Shown here piece after piece: positions 18 to 7,113 of a stretch of DNA of 7,113 nt. The translations under genes were made by a program, and so were the position numbers. The notes under the pieces are model-generated. The model did no database searches and was not told the origin of the DNA. It saw only the letters and a program-made list of their open reading frames with translations. Each line of letters begins with the position of its first letter. The stretch's first letter is position 1. Origin of the DNA: Candidatus Thorarchaeota archaeon (GTDB taxonomy: Archaea > Asgardarchaeota > Thorarchaeia > Thorarchaeales > Thorarchaeaceae); contig JAEOSL010000147.1 in the NCBI GenBank assembly GCA_016840385.1, forward strand, positions 1 through 7,113, given 5' to 3'.

Positions 18-743
18 CTACCAATAGCGAGCATAAGGGAGGGCTGTAGGAACATCCTTTGGATGCAATGGGCATAGCACATTATCAATGCCAACAAAAA
101 ACAGGGCATTCCCACTTTCATAGAGCTCTGTAACTTTGTCTTGAAGGTCAACTAGGACTTCATCATCAAGGTCAAGGGAGTACATTGTATCCAGAAAACT
201 CATCGTGAAGACCATTCGTCCAAAGTTTGAACCCCACTCAAAAATATCAATCATCTGTTGTACATATGTATGACAGTAAGTAACATCATCCTCAGGATAA
301 CTACCCCATGGCCATGCGCTATACAATGGAGCATTTACGATACCTGCGACTCCGATTCCATTATTGATTGTAGAAGCAGCTACAGATGCCACGGCTCCTT
401 CATGAGAGTTTGCGCTCGAACTTGGATACGGTAAATATGAACTGAGAGAGCTATCCCCCGCAAAACTAGCTTTTTCAGTCAGGTTCAGATCCCCGTTTTG
501 ATCATCCGTGATAGGATACCCGATTACACAAAGCCCCACTGCGTTGGGAGTGTGAAATGAATAGCCATGATCCCAAACACTGTGAATTTTAATAGCATCC
601 AAATGCCACGGGTTTCCTTCTGGATCGTCTGGAGTAAATCCTTGAACAAGAGGGAGATTTGCACATGAGCTAATCATGAGTAACAATACTGTAACGCTTG
701 CAAGTATAATTGACTTTGAGAATGAAACCTCTGATTTGCTCAT
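18..743 (-). CDS. Subtilisin-like (S8) serine protease homologue, lipoprotein-like, degenerate and probably frameshifted
   Basis: A 241-residue reading frame that resembles the N-terminal half of subtilases. The N-terminus has a hydrophobic stretch (about 11-25) ending in ISSC (Cys27), which fits a lipobox, so the product would be exported and membrane-anchored. WHLDAIKIHSVWD (46-58) matches the stretch that precedes the catalytic Asp in many subtilases. SHEGAVASVAAS then NNGIGVAGI (113-135) matches the HGTxVAG...NNGIGVAG region with catalytic His114. MVFTMSFL (177-184) matches the VINMSLG strand. The expected catalytic Asp in V-I-D-T-G is Gly75 (CVIGYP), and the oxyanion AAGN motif reads VGIDN. 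The frame ends at TAG 18-20, but the next frame from 34 to the window edge reads MLAIGRFDSTD, very like the subtilase A-[IV]-G-x-x-D-S strand, so a one-base frameshift near 34-40 is likely. The Ser-containing half would lie beyond the left edge. No clear ribosome site precedes the start. Family assignment is fairly sure; activity is unlikely. Confidence 0.62.
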   Translation of the reverse strand: MSKSEVSFSKSIILASVTVLLLMISSCANLPLVQGFTPDDPEGNPWHLDAIKIHSVWDHGYSFHTPNAVGLCVIGYPITDDQNGDLNLTEKASFAGDSSLSSYLPYPSSSANSHEGAVASVAASTINNGIGVAGIVNAPLYSAWPWGSYPEDDVTYCHTYVQQMIDIFEWGSNFGRMVFTMSFLDTMYSLDLDDEVLVDLQDKVTELYESGNALFFVGIDNVLCPLHPKDVPTALPYARYW

Positions 744-1035: not shown

Positions 1036-2016
1036 ATGATTGAGCGAAAAGATATCTCGATATTGTTCCCATTATATATCGTAGCAATTTTGATTTCTAG
1101 TATAGGTTTTGGTAGAATCTTCGAAGACTCAATATCTTATTTAGCTCTTGTTGATTGGTTTCGGGGTGGTGGAGAATTGGTTCCACCTTTCTGCTACCGG
1201 CCAACAATCCCTCTTATCGCAAGCTTTCTCCCCATAGATCCGGTTCTATCTATATCAATTATTTCTCTAGGATTTCTACTGGCACTAACGACAATGATTT
1301 ACTTGATATGTGTCCAGATTGGTGTGTCAAAGCAATCCGCATTTATAGCAACTCTTATTGCCACAATAAGCTACCCAGTCATGACATATGGAGCAGTTGT
1401 ACTACTTGATTCAAGCTACATATTCTTCATGTCTCTGGCAGTATACTTGATGTTACATCCAAAGACACGTGACAAATGGTACATCATTCTGGTTGTGATA
1501 ATGGTTGGCGTATGGTTTAAGGAATCTGCAGCTTTTGCATCTCTTGCATATATCTTCTATAGACGCAACTGGCGTCAAGCACCATTCTTCATCATTGGAC
1601 CTGCACTGTCATATGTAGGATGTCGGTTGTTCATTGGCATGCTCACAATGGAAGGAGCACAGGACTTCTGGATTCCAAGACTTGGTCATTTCATAGAAGG
1701 TCTTCCTCTTACCGCGCAATACTTGGGTGTAAGTTTAGTTGGATTCTCATGGATATTGATCGCATTTCTATTTTCTAAGATACAGAAGGAACATTATCGC
1801 TGGTTATTATCTGTGGGTGGTGCAATGAGTTTATTGAGTGTATATGCAATGACCTCCGCATCTTTTGATGGCCGATTTGTGTGGCCAGTATATTTGATGT
1901 TAACTCCATTGGCAGGATTGATCATTGACGATTTGATTGAGAAGTACGTTCATGGTAAGAAAAATGACGAAGCGGAGAGTATTCCGAACAATCAAAATGA
2001 CAGAGAAGGTGCATAA
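1036..2016 (+). CDS. Polytopic membrane protein, GT-C glycosyltransferase-like
   Basis: A 326-residue protein with about nine to ten hydrophobic helices and a charged, Asn/Asp-rich cytoplasmic-type tail (about 305-326). The first loop carries FEDSISYLALVDWFRGGG followed by CYRPTIPLIASFLP (about 29-66). An acidic residue after helix 1, then an aromatic/Arg-Pro stretch leading into the next helix, is the arrangement seen in membrane-embedded lipid-sugar-dependent (GT-C, PMT/GT39- and GT87-like) glycosyltransferases and their uncharacterised relatives. No other catalytic motif can be assigned by eye, so the enzymatic role is inference and a transporter-like protein is not excluded. The start is supported by GAGGG at 1023-1027, eight bases upstream, and by the TATA element at 965-980. 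The gene stands alone, is convergent with the small basic gene at 2184-2375, and is flanked by the two 87-nt direct repeats. Confidence 0.75.
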   Translation: MIERKDISILFPLYIVAILISSIGFGRIFEDSISYLALVDWFRGGGELVPPFCYRPTIPLIASFLPIDPVLSISIISLGFLLALTTMIYLICVQIGVSKQSAFIATLIATISYPVMTYGAVVLLDSSYIFFMSLAVYLMLHPKTRDKWYIILVVIMVGVWFKESAAFASLAYIFYRRNWRQAPFFIIGPALSYVGCRLFIGMLTMEGAQDFWIPRLGHFIEGLPLTAQYLGVSLVGFSWILIAFLFSKIQKEHYRWLLSVGGAMSLLSVYAMTSASFDGRFVWPVYLMLTPLAGLIIDDLIEKYVHGKKNDEAESIPNNQNDREGA

Positions 2017-2745: not shown

Positions 2746-3432
2746 TCAGACATTGGAAGACCTGACTATATTCCTACTAACTAAAGATTGTACGAGGAAA
2801 CAAAGCATTATGGACACAACTACAAATTTCTGTCCTATTGTAACAGCCAATGATAGCTCGGTGGGATCGACTTGATACATTGAGTAAAGGAATAAACTGA
2901 GAACAACGCCTAAGGCTAAGTATACTAATGAAAACCGATTAGGGAAATTAGGAGAGCCAAGTATGGCAAATATATGAAAGACCACAATTGGCAGTCCTGA
3001 AACAAAAGCAAGAGCTCCAAACATCAAATGAGTATCCCTAAAGATATCTGATGGGGTAAAAGCAGCGCCTACAAAAGTCGATGCAAAGAATACACCAACT
3101 ACAGATCCAAGTAAACTGAACAGCATTGGCTCACGTGTACTTTGGAATAATTTTGGAAAGGCTACAAAATAGGGAATCAACAAAGCACCAGTGAAAAAGA
3201 GTGATGCGTTGAATAGGATAGATGATATCAGATTAGGCGCACCTGAGTATGCAGTCCCACGCCCTAGGTCACTGAAGAAGTTATAGAGCATAGAGAATCC
3301 CGGAGAGCTAGGTTCGACGGCGGAACCTCCTGCATAGGCAATGATAGATAGGGGGAGTAAGACCAATGCTTGTATCATTCCAACAACGCTGAGTGTAAAC
3401 AATACATCATACCAATTTCGTTTCGACTGCAT
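2746..3432 (-). CDS. DUF998-like integral membrane protein
   Basis: A 228-residue protein with about six hydrophobic helices. After helix 1 comes FSMLYNFFSDLGRG, then a helix with SSILFNASLFFTGALLIPYF, and later FTPSDIFRDTHLMFGALAFV. An S-D-L-G loop, a G-x-L-[IL] helix and a P-x-D-x-x-x-x-H loop are typical of the DUF998 family, whose function is unknown. The frame is open to ATG 3474, but I place the start at ATG 3432 (MQSKRNWYDVL): AAGGTGA (3442-3448) sits nine bases before it, and this start does not overlap the upstream gene, which stops at 3446. With a 13-nt gap the gene is almost certainly co-transcribed with the RDD-family gene. The role is unknown; both products are membrane proteins and may work together. 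Confidence 0.72.
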   Translation of the reverse strand: MQSKRNWYDVLFTLSVVGMIQALVLLPLSIIAYAGGSAVEPSSPGFSMLYNFFSDLGRGTAYSGAPNLISSILFNASLFFTGALLIPYFVAFPKLFQSTREPMLFSLLGSVVGVFFASTFVGAAFTPSDIFRDTHLMFGALAFVSGLPIVVFHIFAILGSPNFPNRFSLVYLALGVVLSLFLYSMYQVDPTELSLAVTIGQKFVVVSIMLCFLVQSLVSRNIVRSSNV

Positions 3433-3445
3433 TTGAATTGTCACC

Positions 3446-4171
3446 TTACCATAATGCTCCTGGGTCGTTATCATCTTGCAAGAACCCTAGCGAGATGCTT
3501 CCATTTGATAGATTGCTGAGCGAGGTTTTCACTATAAGCACTCCAGCAAGTTTCTGTGTCAATCGAACTTGTCTCAGTCCATTATTACGATTTTCATACA
3601 TTGATACTAATGTACCAAGAAAAAGGTCCAAGAGGAGGAAAGTCTTTCCAATAGCATTGACAGCTGCTTCTCCTACAGAGAGTGTTCTATTCTTACTTTT
3701 ATGAAGCGTCTTCAATCTTAAAACACGTCGGCCTACTGTTCTTCCTTCGAGAAACGCATCGAATACGAAGAAGTATAGGAACCCAGTAATTGCCACAAGT
3801 ATTGATGTTAACGAGAAACCGACTCCTCCAATGAATGTCATATAGAAGACCAAGAAGGAGGAAACACTCACGCCAATAAATACAAACACGGCCATCAAAG
3901 TGACAAGAGGGTTTACTGAAGGGAATATAAACGGGATGAGGAACAATGAAACATATCCGGGTATGAGGATTATTAATAGTAGTTCAATGACCAGACTAAA
4001 AATTGCGATATCAACAATCATAGCTAGAATCCTACTAGGTAGTTTGACAATATACTCATCAGCTTCTGTATTGAACACTCTCTCGCTGAGGAATATCAAG
4101 AAAACAATGACTAGTGCTATACCTCCAAATAGGATGGCAAAAGCTAGTAAGAAAACATTTGGATCAATCAA
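3446..4171 (-). CDS. RDD-family membrane protein
   Basis: A 241-residue membrane protein. After an N-terminal helix (5-29) comes LPSRILAMIVDIAIF (about 44-58), the R...D pattern that opens RDD domains, then three more hydrophobic segments. The second hallmark is FLEGRTVGRRVLRLKTLHKS (about 140-159), equivalent to G-x-T-x-G-[KR]-x-x-x-x-L-[KR]. Next comes LSVGEAAVNAIGKTFLLLDLF and finally RLTQKLAGVLIVK, equivalent to the D-K-x-A-G-T-x-V ending. The family is poorly defined biochemically; some bacterial members influence ion transport. A tail of about 30 residues follows the domain. The start is TTG 4171, chosen because GAGGG lies eight bases upstream. It is the first gene of a two-gene unit with the DUF998-like gene, 13 nt downstream. 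Confidence 0.8.
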   Translation of the reverse strand: MIDPNVFLLAFAILFGGIALVIVFLIFLSERVFNTEADEYIVKLPSRILAMIVDIAIFSLVIELLLIILIPGYVSLFLIPFIFPSVNPLVTLMAVFVFIGVSVSSFLVFYMTFIGGVGFSLTSILVAITGFLYFFVFDAFLEGRTVGRRVLRLKTLHKSKNRTLSVGEAAVNAIGKTFLLLDLFLGTLVSMYENRNNGLRQVRLTQKLAGVLIVKTSLSNLSNGSISLGFLQDDNDPGALW

Positions 4172-4232: not shown

Positions 4233-4280
4233 AAGCAAGTATCTTTGTAGTTAGAATTTCGAACGTTGAAGATTTGATTT

Positions 4281-4312
4281 GAAAAGAAAAGAGAGGGAAG
4301 GAGTGTGACAAG
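4281..4312 (-). terminator. Repeat element D, probable terminator of the 74-aa membrane protein gene
   Basis: On the plus strand it contains GAGGGAAGGAGTGTGACAAG (4293-4312), identical over 20 bases to 4970-4989. On the minus strand this is GTCACACTCCTTCCCTC running into CTTTTCTTTTC, a pyrimidine tract suited to archaeal termination. It lies downstream of the gene ending at 4450 and before the RDD operon promoter region. A 7-bp hairpin (CTATCAT / ATGATAG, 4340-4362) lies just before it. Confidence 0.5.
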
Positions 4313-4674: not shown

Positions 4675-5040
4675 ATTCATTCCTCCTGTACTATTCCCTC
4701 TTTTGAGTCAAAATGATGACTGCAATAATCGCAACTACACCGATTTCCTCTCCATTGATTGAATGTGTGTAGTGTGATTATGTTCAAACACGCGAACGTT
4801 ATTCTATGCTAATAACTCCTTTATTAATTATCACATAATTTGATAGTTGAAGAATCAAGTTCCATATTATAGCTAAATGATTGAGAGTTGGTACTGTTAG
4901 CTAATAATTATGAAACATCTGCAGACTAAAAACATCAGGTTGAGTATTTCACATATTGAAAAAGAAAGGGAGGGAAGGAGTGTGACAAGCACACCCGAGC
5001 AGGGTTGTCAAACCCGGTCCATTAGTTTACGACCGAGTCT
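4675..5040. other. Intergenic region between vhuU and the small membrane gene
   Basis: From right to left it contains the 3' half of the proposed SECIS (to 4998), the terminator/repeat element E (4955-4989), about 150 nt of AT-rich DNA with no clear gene, and a 100-nt stretch (4677-4808) with two suggestive but start-less minus-strand frames. One reads as a membrane helix and basic tail, the other as a zinc-finger-like Cys cluster. The ribosome site of the small membrane gene is at 4682-4687. Confidence 0.5.
4955..4989 (-). terminator. Repeat element E, probable terminator of the vhu operon
   Basis: The plus-strand 20-mer GAGGGAAGGAGTGTGACAAG (4970-4989) is identical to that of element D. 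On the minus strand it gives CACTCCTTCCCTCCC followed by TTTCTTTTTC, a pyrimidine run just after the proposed SECIS. Its position at the end of vhuGAU fits transcript termination. Confidence 0.55.
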
Positions 5041-5052
5041 TCATCCGCCGCC
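4998..5052 (-). promoter_or_regulatory. Candidate eukaryote-like SECIS element of vhuU
   Basis: Folded by eye on the minus strand. A lower helix pairs GGCGG-C-GG (5052-5045, one bulged C) with CCCTGCT (5004-4998). The core is AUGAA (5044-5040) facing UGAC (5010-5007), giving tandem G.A pairs as in the kink-turn quartet of eukaryotic SECIS. The upper helix is nine pairs, GACTCGGTC (5039-5031) with GACCGGGTT (5019-5011), including G.U pairs. The apical loop GTAAACTAATG (5030-5020) carries AAA 12 nt after the core UGA, the spacing expected for the conserved loop adenines. The core lies 81 nt after the Sec codon. The UGA of the core is also the stop codon of vhuU. Eukaryote-like SECIS elements are known for Lokiarchaeota selenoprotein genes. 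The fold has not been computed. Confidence 0.6.
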
Positions 5053-5193
5053 AGTCACAAGCTCCTTCCTGACTAACTCGTGGCCATCATCGTCGACAAC
5101 GACAAGATGAGCACCACATGATAGTCAGCAGTCGTAGCACCGAACCACCATTTCTAGGAGGTTCAGTAGCCCTTCAGGGATTTCTTCCGACAT
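5041..5193 (-). CDS. vhuU: VhuU: selenocysteine-containing C-terminal fragment of the [NiFe]-hydrogenase large subunit
   Basis: A 50-residue selenopolypeptide with an in-frame TGA (5125-5127) read as Sec23. It supplies the second half of the nickel site to VhuA. GLLNLLEMVV (8-17) matches the end of MvhA-type large subunits, and RCYDCULSCGAH (18-29) matches R-x-Y-D-P-C-x-x-C-x-x-H with Sec at the first and Cys26 at the second nickel ligand. The usual Pro is Cys22. A 21-residue tail follows His29, as in precursors trimmed after this His by a hydrogenase maturation peptidase. The same split, with Sec, is known as VhuU in Methanococcus and Methanocaldococcus. ATG 5193 is the first possible start after in-frame stops; AGGA (5208-5205) lies 11 bases upstream. 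It begins 38 nt after vhuA in another frame. Terminated at the TGA it would be only 22 residues, so conventional annotation would miss it. Confidence 0.88.
5125..5127 (-). other. Selenocysteine codon (UGA) of vhuU
   Basis: The TGA sits between GAC-TGC and CTA-TCA-TGT. Translating through it restores the nickel-ligand motif and 27 more codons up to a second TGA. It aligns with the nickel- and iron-bridging or terminal Cys position of DPCxxC, where VhuU of methanogens also has Sec. Confidence 0.85.
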
Positions 5194-5231: not shown

Positions 5232-6548
5232 CTAGGTTTTGACCAATGGATCAGGTAGTTTCAGGCTCTCATGGGCCTTATCCTCGAAGACTTGCTTTGC
5301 AGCAGTCATGAGGCTCTTTTCGATTCCAGCGATGTTGTTGTTTGTAGCAACGATGAGGTTTGCTTTCACAAGCATTCCCTTGTCGTCACTTACGTAGTTG
5401 TGCATGAGAGTTCCTCTCGGTGCCTCAACCATACCAACACCATCTCCAGCTCGTGGTTCAACATCTGACAGTTTAACGTCAGTGTTGCAAATGTCTGGGT
5501 CTTCAAGAAGTATCTTACACCATTCTGCAGCCTGTACTAACTCGACGATTCGAGCATAGTGGTATGCAAAGGTGTGATGTGAAGGTCTCCCAATGAGTTC
5601 CCTCATTTCTGTCAATGCGGCATCTGCAAGTGGAGTTGCCATTTTCTCTACAACATTGCACCTAGCAAGTGTGTTTGCTCTCCAGATGCCCTCAGGATAG
5701 CCAGCTGGTTTATGGTAAATGTGAGTAGCATAGCTGTGCTTTGCTACATGCTCACCATAATGCTGAGTGTAGTCCTTTGGTTCGAAGTCAGCAACAATCT
5801 TGCCTTCAGTATCCATCACTCGAATGGTTCCATCATAGATGTCGTGTACACCCTTGTTGTTCATTCCAATGTAGTAAGTTGGAGTCACAGCAATCTTTGT
5901 GATAACATCGATATAGGCATTAACTACTGTCTTTGCTAGGTCAACAGTTTTGTGGATATTATCCAACATCTCTGGAACCTTGCCAAGGAATAGGTCGCGG
6001 TCCTCTTCAGTTAGTGGAGCGAGTTGACCACCAGGAATAGCAGTTGTAGGATGGACAGCTTTTGCACCAACGGTCTTGATGAGTTCCTGACCAAACTCCA
6101 TGAGCTTGATCGCTTGTACAGCAACATCAGGCAAGTGCTTCAACACTGCAGCCACATTTCGAACGGAGGGGTCTGCAAAGGGACCGAACACAAAGTCTGG
6201 TGCAGCAAGTGCATAGAAGTGGATAGCATGGCTTGAGAGCTGTTTAGCTTCAATCATGAGTCTCCTGAGCTTTATTGCAGCTGGTGGAGGAGTTACACCC
6301 CAGGCAGCTTCGACAGCTTTCACTGATGCAAGATGGTGAGGGATAGGACAGATACCACAGATTCGTGGAGCAATTCTTGGAGCCTCTTCCATTGGGCGGC
6401 CCTCGAGGAACTTCTCGAAGAATCGTGTGGAGTTCACATTGAATTGAACATCCTTGACCTTGTTTCCAGGTCCGAGTTTGATTGTTAGCGAACCATGTCC
6501 TTCAAGCCTTGTTACTGGGTCGATGCGGATTACCTTTTCGTCAGTCAT
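5232..6548 (-). CDS. vhuA: VhuA/MvhA-type [NiFe]-hydrogenase large (alpha) subunit, lacking the C-terminal ligand motif
   Basis: A 438-residue catalytic subunit of an F420-non-reducing (group 3c) hydrogenase. It oxidises H2 at a NiFe(CN)2CO centre and passes electrons through VhuG and VhuD to heterodisulfide reductase HdrABC, usually by flavin-based bifurcation in the cytoplasm. The sequence has IRIDPVTRLEGHG (7-19, conserved Glu16) and RICGICPIPH (62-71) with nickel ligands Cys64 and Cys67. It then follows the family to its end but stops at LPDPLVKT, before the DPCxxCxxH that intact large subunits carry. That motif is encoded by the separate vhuU downstream, so the protein is complete as a split subunit and not a truncated pseudogene. 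The start ATG overlaps the vhuG stop (ATGA), with GGAGG ten bases upstream; vhuG-vhuA-vhuU form one operon. Confidence 0.93.
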   Translation of the reverse strand: MTDEKVIRIDPVTRLEGHGSLTIKLGPGNKVKDVQFNVNSTRFFEKFLEGRPMEEAPRIAPRICGICPIPHHLASVKAVEAAWGVTPPPAAIKLRRLMIEAKQLSSHAIHFYALAAPDFVFGPFADPSVRNVAAVLKHLPDVAVQAIKLMEFGQELIKTVGAKAVHPTTAIPGGQLAPLTEEDRDLFLGKVPEMLDNIHKTVDLAKTVVNAYIDVITKIAVTPTYYIGMNNKGVHDIYDGTIRVMDTEGKIVADFEPKDYTQHYGEHVAKHSYATHIYHKPAGYPEGIWRANTLARCNVVEKMATPLADAALTEMRELIGRPSHHTFAYHYARIVELVQAAEWCKILLEDPDICNTDVKLSDVEPRAGDGVGMVEAPRGTLMHNYVSDDKGMLVKANLIVATNNNIAGIEKSLMTAAKQVFEDKAHESLKLPDPLVKT

Positions 6549-7113
6549 TTATTCTTGGCCTCCTCACGCTTGATACGAATTGAACCGAGGTGGCTCGTAG
6601 TATAGGTGAACCGGTTGAAAGTTCCTAGTGGATCCTTCACCTGTTCTTTGATTTCTTCAGGTGTCAACGGAGCATATGTTCCCATCATGGATATCGCGTT
6701 CGCACCTTGGTCTTGAAAGACCGGCGGTGGTGGTCCATAACAGCCACGGCATGTTACACCTTTGTTTACACATTGTCCTTCACAAAGTCCCCAGGTGGCT
6801 GAGCCAACACAGATGTAACCTTGCTCTAACAGGCATCGGTCGGGGTCTGCGATTCCCTCGTAGGGTCTCAGTATCTTCTCGACTGGGGTTTCTTTCTTCT
6901 CTCTATCGCAGTAATGACACACAGTATGTGGTTCTAACTCAATGGGGGATCCACTGAGTAGAGCACTAACTGCTGTGAGAATGAGTTTTGATGTTGGAGG
7001 ACAACCTGGAAGATAGATATCGAAGTCCACAATAGTATTGTTAGGAACAACCACGGGTTCTAGGGCAGGGATATTCTCAGAAGGAATCACGTTGCCAGAA
7101 GTGGTTGGGTTCT
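6545..7113 (-). CDS. vhuG: VhuG/MvhG-type [NiFe]-hydrogenase small (gamma) subunit, 5' part outside the window
   Basis: The iron-sulfur electron-transfer subunit that binds VhuA and carries electrons from the NiFe centre. The frame is open to the right edge: codons before GTG 7090 read NPTTSGN without a stop, so that GTG is an internal Val and the N-terminal half with the first CxxC is missing here. Counting from that Val, LPGCPP (27-32) gives a proximal-cluster Cys. HTVCHYCDREKKE (55-67) with CHYC, and then CLLEQGYICVG, GLCEGQC and CRGCYGPP (86-121), give the ligands of two further [4Fe-4S] clusters, as in methanogen MvhG/VhuG and F420-reducing hydrogenase gamma subunits. It ends in the ATGA overlap with vhuA. 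VhuD would be expected upstream, outside the window. Confidence 0.92.
   Translation of the reverse strand, partial: NPTTSGNVIPSENIPALEPVVVPNNTIVDFDIYLPGCPPTSKLILTAVSALLSGSPIELEPHTVCHYCDREKKETPVEKILRPYEGIADPDRCLLEQGYICVGSATWGLCEGQCVNKGVTCRGCYGPPPPVFQDQGANAISMMGTYAPLTPEEIKEQVKDPLGTFNRFTYTTSHLGSIRIKREEAKNK

Follow-up and report, generated by a model that had tools for sequence, protein, structure and literature searches.

A predicted selenoprotein gene, vhuU, and its SECIS-like element beside a split [NiFeSe]-hydrogenase large subunit in an Asgard contig

The vhuU locus and its relatives

The window (the whole stretch of 7,113 nt analysed here) contains three neighbouring hydrogenase genes on the minus strand, vhuG, vhuA and vhuU (Table 1). 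The last of these starts with ATG 38 nt 3' of the vhuA stop codon and consists of 22 codons, a TGA, 27 codons and a terminal TGA; with the first TGA translated as selenocysteine (Sec), the peptide reads MSEEIPEGLLNLLEMVVRCYDCULSCGAHLVVVDDDGHELVRKELVTGGG. A first-pass annotation had picked out this frame by its start, its spacing from vhuA, its in-frame TGA and the segment RCYDCULSCGAH, all confirmed by frame reading. Four other frames lie at 18-743 (-), 1036-2016 (+), 2746-3474 (-) and 3446-4171 (-); in Pfam searches one has no match, one is of the PMT family, and the others give weak, sub-cut-off Frag1/DRAM-like and RDD-like matches.

Table 1. Positions of the features discussed, in the window unless a locus is named
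Feature	Position	Strand	Evidence
vhuU coding sequence, 50 codons and TGA stop, one in-frame TGA	5041..5193	-	frame reading, relatives
Predicted Sec codon (in-frame TGA), residue 23	5125..5127	-	kept in relatives; Cys in Cys-coded homologues
TGA stop codon; with A5044, AUGA of the SECIS core	5041..5043	-	Rfam SECIS_1 alignment
vhuA, main part of [NiFe] large subunit, CGIC present, C-terminal motif absent	5232..6548	-	PF00374, PDB, NCBIfam
vhuG, small subunit, cut by the window edge	6545..7111	-	PF01058, relative in L011
SECIS-like element, three helices around a junction	4972..5061	-	model R1, Rfam SECIS_1, covariation
Lower stem, 5' strand, within the last vhuU codons, pairs with 4982-4991	5049..5058	-	helix 1 covariation
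Lower stem, 3' strand	4982..4991	-	covariation
SECIS upper stem, 5' strand, pairs with 5010-5019; start of GUAAA loop next	5031..5040	-	fold and covariation
SECIS upper stem, 3' strand, then core GA (5009-5008)	5010..5019	-	fold and covariation
Extra short hairpin (5002-5005 with 4993-4996), between upper and lower stem	4993..5005	-	covariation
SECIS-like RNA behind cysS	L170 1656-1745, L171 1940-2029, L186 1880-1969, L187 1825-1913, L190 1905-1993
SECIS-like RNA behind cysS	L172 1758-1845, L173 1487-1576, L188 1833-1922	-

Several comparisons identify the vhuU product as the end of a hydrogenase large subunit. First, the pattern D-x-TGA-x-x-C-x-x-[H/R] is seen once, against 0.04 occurrences expected per window in 2000 first-order Markov simulations. 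Second, alignments to solved hydrogenases put the TGA at the first of the residues with which the C-terminal motif binds nickel. Third, the peptide matches the missing large-subunit end in PDB 7t2r, 9sw2 and 5odc, and the 27-residue chain 9sfi_M, named 'F420 non-reducing hydrogenase subunit', has X in the TGA column. Against the NCBIfam VhuU model (NF041786) the peptide scores 51.5 bits, below the cut-off of 70, and is thus probably a divergent homologue that works like VhuU and lies outside the equivalog as calibrated.

The adjacent VhuA is a chain of 438 residues that matches PF00374 (Pfam) with 95.4 bits and, among solved structures, PDB chain 9sfi_g best (E 2.4e-132, residues 7-421); the NCBIfam VhuA model gives 484 bits, below its cut-off of 800. 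The CGIC motif is present and the chain ends ahead of the C-terminal nickel motif, which is found, with Sec, in VhuU, so that an N-terminal CGxC and a C-terminal CxxC do not occur together in this one chain. The lack of the C-terminal motif, stated in the first-pass annotation for the window, extends to the Asgard loci, where among the matches listed none of 112 adjacent VhuA proteins carries it in the last 80 residues. The closest full-length VhuA is 91% identical and comes from Thorarchaeota, in keeping with the Asgard origin proposed earlier; a partial VhuA is 96% identical across 138 residues. A Thorarchaeota archaeon is the most likely source of the window. An AlphaFold2 model of the read-through vhuA-vhuU frame of relative L002, computed with 21 rows, has a mean pLDDT of 72.6, with values of 26-53 over VhuU.

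The vhuG fragment in the window matches PF01058 with 17.5 bits, below cut-off. In relative L011 the complete VhuG scores 228 bits against NF045875, below the cut-off of 450, and the NCBIfam matches to HdrA, VhuD and VhuG are all below their cut-offs. Upstream of vhuA, relative L001 carries an HdrA-like fusion, HdrC, HdrB, HdrA, MvhD and VhuG, in that order, the gene names being our reading of Pfam domains. The enzyme is most likely an HdrABC-MvhDGA(U) complex; because the window ends within vhuG, we infer this for the window itself.

Relatives of the locus were found with VhuA. Of 18 such loci, 15 are readable (13 Thorarchaeota, one Lokiarchaeota and one archaeon); two contigs stop at the match and one distant bacterial hit was dropped. 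All 15, like the window, have TGA at the same codon and a terminal TGA, the outcome of the TGA-versus-TGC comparison proposed in the first-pass annotation, and all keep LSC[GA]AH after the first TGA. At the aligned start codon L011 has ATT. A profile of the window and the 15 relatives (alignment A1, 16 sequences) was searched in 227 genomes of the phylum and matched at least 187 of them at E 1e-3, with short TGA genes and undivided Cys subunits mixed. From the matches listed, 142 loci were examined together with the window; rows for L001-L018 were removed as duplicates of genome loci, and 18 of 168 pattern rows because they fell below a similarity threshold. Among these matches listed, 135 of the 143 loci fit the pattern, 127 with TGA and eight with Cys in D-P-C (seven undivided, one cut by a contig edge). 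The pattern demands C at +3 and H or R at +6, and the conservation of both positions in the 127 TGA rows is therefore by construction. The eight loci outside the pattern comprise five with TGA and three of split Cys type. In L127 a TAA follows 12 codons past the TGA and cuts the frame short.

Database proteins supplied 19 further homologues: 12 split proteins with Cys at the TGA place (all D-C-C), six that print W there, and one that ends ahead of the site. The three split Cys-type loci (L080, L135, L152) read DCCLSCSAF, with Phe replacing the motif His. A general rule that Cys-coded split VhuU is always without this His was ruled out, as 11 of the 12 database proteins retain it.

Among the matches listed, 115 of the 127 TGA rows have VhuA in the fetched DNA, and in 112 of these it ends no more than 200 nt upstream; the other 12 rows have no VhuA there. 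For the TGA-type vhuU of eight loci (L070, L072, L073, L083, L086, L087, L092, L100), the roughly 1.6 kb of upstream DNA gave no VhuA match; these genes are perhaps second copies away from the operon.

The SECIS-like RNA at the 3' end of vhuU

The 3' end of vhuU coincides with an RNA element of three helices that the first-pass annotation had passed over. The lists of this region comprise 41 and 73 sequences, 13 of the 127 TGA rows being left out (no TGA stop, too little DNA, or identical). Alignment A3 contains the 41 sequences; A4 contains 62 of the 73, the 11 more divergent having been left out. Paired cells make up 90.6% in A3 and 95.4% in A4, and fall to at most 44.2% and 53.5%, respectively, when the partners are slid. 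Double-change cells number 83 in A3 against a shuffled mean of 26, and 94 in A4 against 18, in shuffles that leave relatedness among the sequences in place. None of five covariation measures is reached by shuffles in A4, and four of the five are reached by at most one of 500 shuffles in A3; the remaining, weak measure in A3, further pair types, stands at 44 versus 40 and is reached by 31 of 500. By helix, the lower stem (helix 1) has 92.1% of cells paired with changes on both sides in seven of ten pairs, and the extra hairpin 97.0% with such changes in one of four; the outermost pair of the upper stem is present in only 13 of 41 sequences. RNAalifold independently predicts the same three helices.

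Within the window, the RNA 5056-4990 folds with a z of -3.1, two of 200 shuffles being as stable; this 67-nt piece shows the upper stem and a different lower pairing, and it excludes the 3' strand of the lower stem. The eukaryotic model SECIS_1 of Rfam (RF00031) aligns over its full length at 4998-5052 with 23.5 bits (E 0.49), below the gathering score of 35. A covariance model, R1, for which neither the window nor the vhuU relative nearest to it was used (A6 excludes the window, L032, L058 and L059), has its sole hit in the window at this element, out of sample, with 91.7 bits and E 7e-22.

The lower stem is likely built from the last vhuU codons, with the stop UGA serving as SECIS core. Among the matches listed, the stop is TGA in 100 of 112 vhuU genes compared with one of the 112 adjacent vhuA genes; it is TGA in 115 of the 127 TGA rows, and 103 of those 115 read ATGA. 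The other 12 rows stop at TAA or TAG, and ten of these have NTGA 4-24 nt downstream; in L127 NTGA occurs at 7 and 44, and the downstream stretch examined in L146 contains none. These counts indicate that the overlap of stop and core is strongly favoured and not obligatory. For Lokiarchaeia, a stop UGA overlapping AUGA is noted in the text of PMC11227280, citing Mariotti 2016.

An alternative to a SECIS function, which we regard as improbable, is that this RNA acts as a terminator or a protein-binding hairpin and that recoding proceeds via another signal. Consistent with such a role, the pyrimidine-rich end of the element recurs elsewhere in the window: a 34-nt tract (4956-4989) has intergenic copies at 833-866, 2083-2116 and 4279-4312 (with the copy at 4279 as reference, the other three copies have identities of 91%, 71% and 71%). 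An element of the same form also stands behind cysS, where no Sec codon was seen. However, the window element, with its AUGA/GA core, upper stem of 10 bp, A-rich loop of 11 nt and the TGA in a UxxC motif, fits the Asgard eSECIS-like criteria given in the text passages of PMC11227280 (GA_[G/A]A core, upper stem of 7-15 bp, apical loop of 8-20 nt). Moreover, R1 gave weaker hits outside the vhuU-like group, and of the 11 that were fetched, seven lie behind frames with an in-frame TGA, read as Prx-like in four cases and MvhD-like in three.

The element behind cysS is the same three-helix SECIS-like RNA, with AUGA/GA core and AAAG loop, and is present in eight genomes, four of them from Thorarchaeota (Table 1); the gene was named cysS (Cys-tRNA synthetase) by our own reading. 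Here 95.1% of cells pair, and double-change cells number 14, compared with a mean of 5.5 in shuffles. Two measures are weak (double-change pairs, 6 versus 3.7, reached by 25 of 500 shuffles; pair types, 17 versus 16.5, reached by 245 of 500), and the lower stem shows no double change in the eight genomes. That this element serves a Sec codon in cysS was not borne out, no TGA being seen inside the enzyme. In L170-L173 the frame was followed as far as its stop, beginning ahead of the likely start codon or at the contig edge, and cysS contains no TGA; in the other four loci, whose starts were not individually mapped, the TGAs listed coincide with the stop or precede the likely start. We know of no precedent for a conserved SECIS without a Sec codon, and a literature search that combined both terms found neither in any title or abstract.

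Solitary copies of the vhuU-type SECIS occur behind other frames in L004 (about 9870-9985 and 10440-10550), L183, L184, L185 (two), L189 and L191. The vhuU 3' end is kept to varying extents in these copies, without the nickel motif, and the copy in L189 has a changed core (ATAA). The window also contains a 98-nt repeat twice, at 840-937 and 2090-2187, with 87% identity.

Coding constraint and selenocysteine machinery

Past the TGA, the codons show protein-like evolution that ends at the stop. In the nearest group of vhuU sequences (37 distinct), dN/dS is 0.08 before the TGA, 0.21 after it and 0.68 past the stop; in the other 81 the values are 0.10, 0.21 and 0.91, with synonymous sites near saturation. 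The two groups were split by score order and not by taxonomy. This pattern bears on the proposal that translation truly stops at the TGA, which would make the codons beyond it a relic and leave VhuA either inactive or completed by another subunit. In its favour, the frame read under table 11 has only 22 codons, as the first-pass annotation had counted; yet constraint continues after the TGA until the next stop, where it is lost, and neither the TGA nor LSC[GA]AH varies in the window and the 15 readable relatives, so that this proposal appears highly improbable.

Components for Sec insertion, a search for which had been suggested in the first-pass annotation, were sought in the genomes of 15 relatives and in 14 control genomes, and are widespread in the former. 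Matches above cut-off were obtained for tRNA-Sec in 12 of 15 relatives versus 5 of 14 controls, for SepSecS in 13 versus 4, and for SelB in 11 versus 2. SelD is present in all 15 relatives, with an in-frame TGA in 14 (the best match in G003 has none), and is above cut-off in 2 of 14 controls. PSTK-like matches of 100-153 bits in 14 of 15 relatives all fall below the cut-off of 290.5, which is exceeded in 1 of 14 controls; in all 12 genomes with tRNA-Sec, a PSTK-like gene is about 0.4 kb or less away from it. SepSecS was not found in G002 and G015, nor tRNA-Sec above cut-off in G002, G014 and G015. All five components, PSTK below cut-off, are present in G011, a single-contig chromosome. The PSTK-like gene, tRNA-Sec and SepSecS share one contig in 12 of 15 genomes, including G011 (G011:C1:258162-262431), and a SelB match, in one case just below cut-off, is on that same contig in ten.

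There is very little likelihood that the UGA instead specifies a different residue, such as Trp or Cys, or is skipped, with no selenium involved: the W printed at the TGA place in six of the 19 database proteins looks like translation of TGA as Trp by the source, since five of the six also print W at the terminal TGA, and this reading is opposed by the SECIS-like RNA that follows vhuU, by the Sec machinery in relatives, by Cys-coded homologues that fit a Sec/Cys pattern, and by the use of UGA to terminate vhuU itself.

We are therefore confident that vhuU is a separate gene of 50 codons whose in-frame UGA is predicted to specify Sec and whose product would complete the split [NiFeSe] large subunit. 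The Sec reading and the split, both proposed in the first-pass annotation, are upheld; the Sec reading is supported by the conserved TGA, the protein-like evolution of the codons on either side of it, the SECIS-like RNA and the Sec machinery of relatives. Judged from sequence, the hydrogenase that standard gene calling leaves incomplete is very probably intact.

Proposed function and comparison with known systems

A plausible mechanism can be outlined. The element at the 3' end of vhuU would recruit Sec-tRNA through EFSec, and Sec would be inserted at codon 23. The second UGA would itself be part of the SECIS core, and a ribosome arriving there would have unfolded the element and would terminate. 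The VhuU peptide may then supply the two nickel ligands absent from VhuA, with Sec23 and Cys26 joining the two CGIC cysteines of VhuA at the Ni-Fe site. MvhD/HdrABC would be the partner with which the resulting VhuGAU unit exchanges electrons; in a relative, the likely genes for these proteins are found upstream. A testable question raised by this double role of the stop UGA is how two UGAs 28 codons apart are distinguished.

A second feature concerns the residue preceding Sec. The first-pass annotation had placed Sec at the first Cys of DPCxxCxxH; alignment upholds the position, but the residue before it in the window is Cys (D-C-U) and not the Pro of the family (D-P-U), a change that had gone unremarked. 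Among the matches listed, this residue is Cys in 124 of the 127 TGA rows, Pro in two and Phe in one, and in the five further TGA rows, read by eye, Cys in four and Asn in one. Pro stands here in the solved VhuU-like chain and in eight fetched D-P-C subunits. Cys is also found in the three split Cys-type loci and in 12 database proteins, which indicates that the change from Pro to Cys accompanies the split form in Asgard archaea, irrespective of whether the next residue is Sec or Cys. The Cys-Sec pair raises the testable question of the role of a thiol beside nickel-bound Sec.

It is a tentative suggestion that Asgard VhuU is distinct twice over, by a vicinal Cys-Sec pair and by a partly coding recoding signal in which the stop UGA is the SECIS core. 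If so, the pair, placed at the metal site of a hydrogenase, could give rise to a protective selenenylsulfide or provide a further ligand, and one RNA would both make the first UGA sense and guarantee the second as a stop, the arriving ribosome unfolding that RNA.

Known systems differ from the window to varying degrees. In the bacterial [NiFeSe] hydrogenase HysA, Sec is a nickel ligand; VhuA aligns with the N-terminal part of HysA, which is one undivided chain. VhuU of Methanococcales (NF041786) and the VhuU-like chain M of PDB 9sfi/9t1s are, like the window VhuU, short separate chains with Sec at the first Cys of the C-terminal nickel motif. In chain M of 9sfi the corresponding segment is D-P-X-Y-S-C-A-A-H, its X lying where the window has TGA; compared with this chain the window VhuU has Cys for Pro before Sec and Cys19 for Ala. 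The recoding signals also differ, the window SECIS being of eukaryotic type, unlike the GAA_A type that PMC11227280 gives in its text for methanogens.

Within Asgard archaea, the novelty implied in the first-pass annotation does not hold, since Sec-containing VhuU is already in print in the text passages of PMC11227280 and PMC11291895. Text passages of PMC11227280, PMC11291895, PMC13188914, PMC9723677, PMC9499178 and PMC2933860 hold no discussion of the Cys-Sec pair, and those of PMC11227280 describe none of the extra hairpin, the coding lower stem and the pair. What is added here is the lower SECIS stem in vhuU codons, the stop UGA as core, Cys in place of Pro before Sec, and a clear Thorarchaeota-like case of a eukaryote-like Sec system. 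Huang 2024 (PMC11227280), according to its text passages, surveyed FrhA/MvhA/VhuU selenoproteins and SECIS elements in Asgard archaea; the family, the phylum and the AUGA_GA core are the same as in the window, whose GUAAA fits the G[U/G]AAA loop reported there for most Thorarchaeia frhA. As far as those passages go, the window vhuU is no different in kind from that Asgard family. The VhuU of Atabeyarchaeia and Freyarchaeia, as described in text passages of PMC11291895, likewise shows the split, a length of about 50 residues, Sec and an Asgard host, and differs in lineage. The sequence comparisons thus provide good support for regarding vhuU as a predicted selenoprotein gene of known kind, an Asgard VhuU with an eSECIS-like element.
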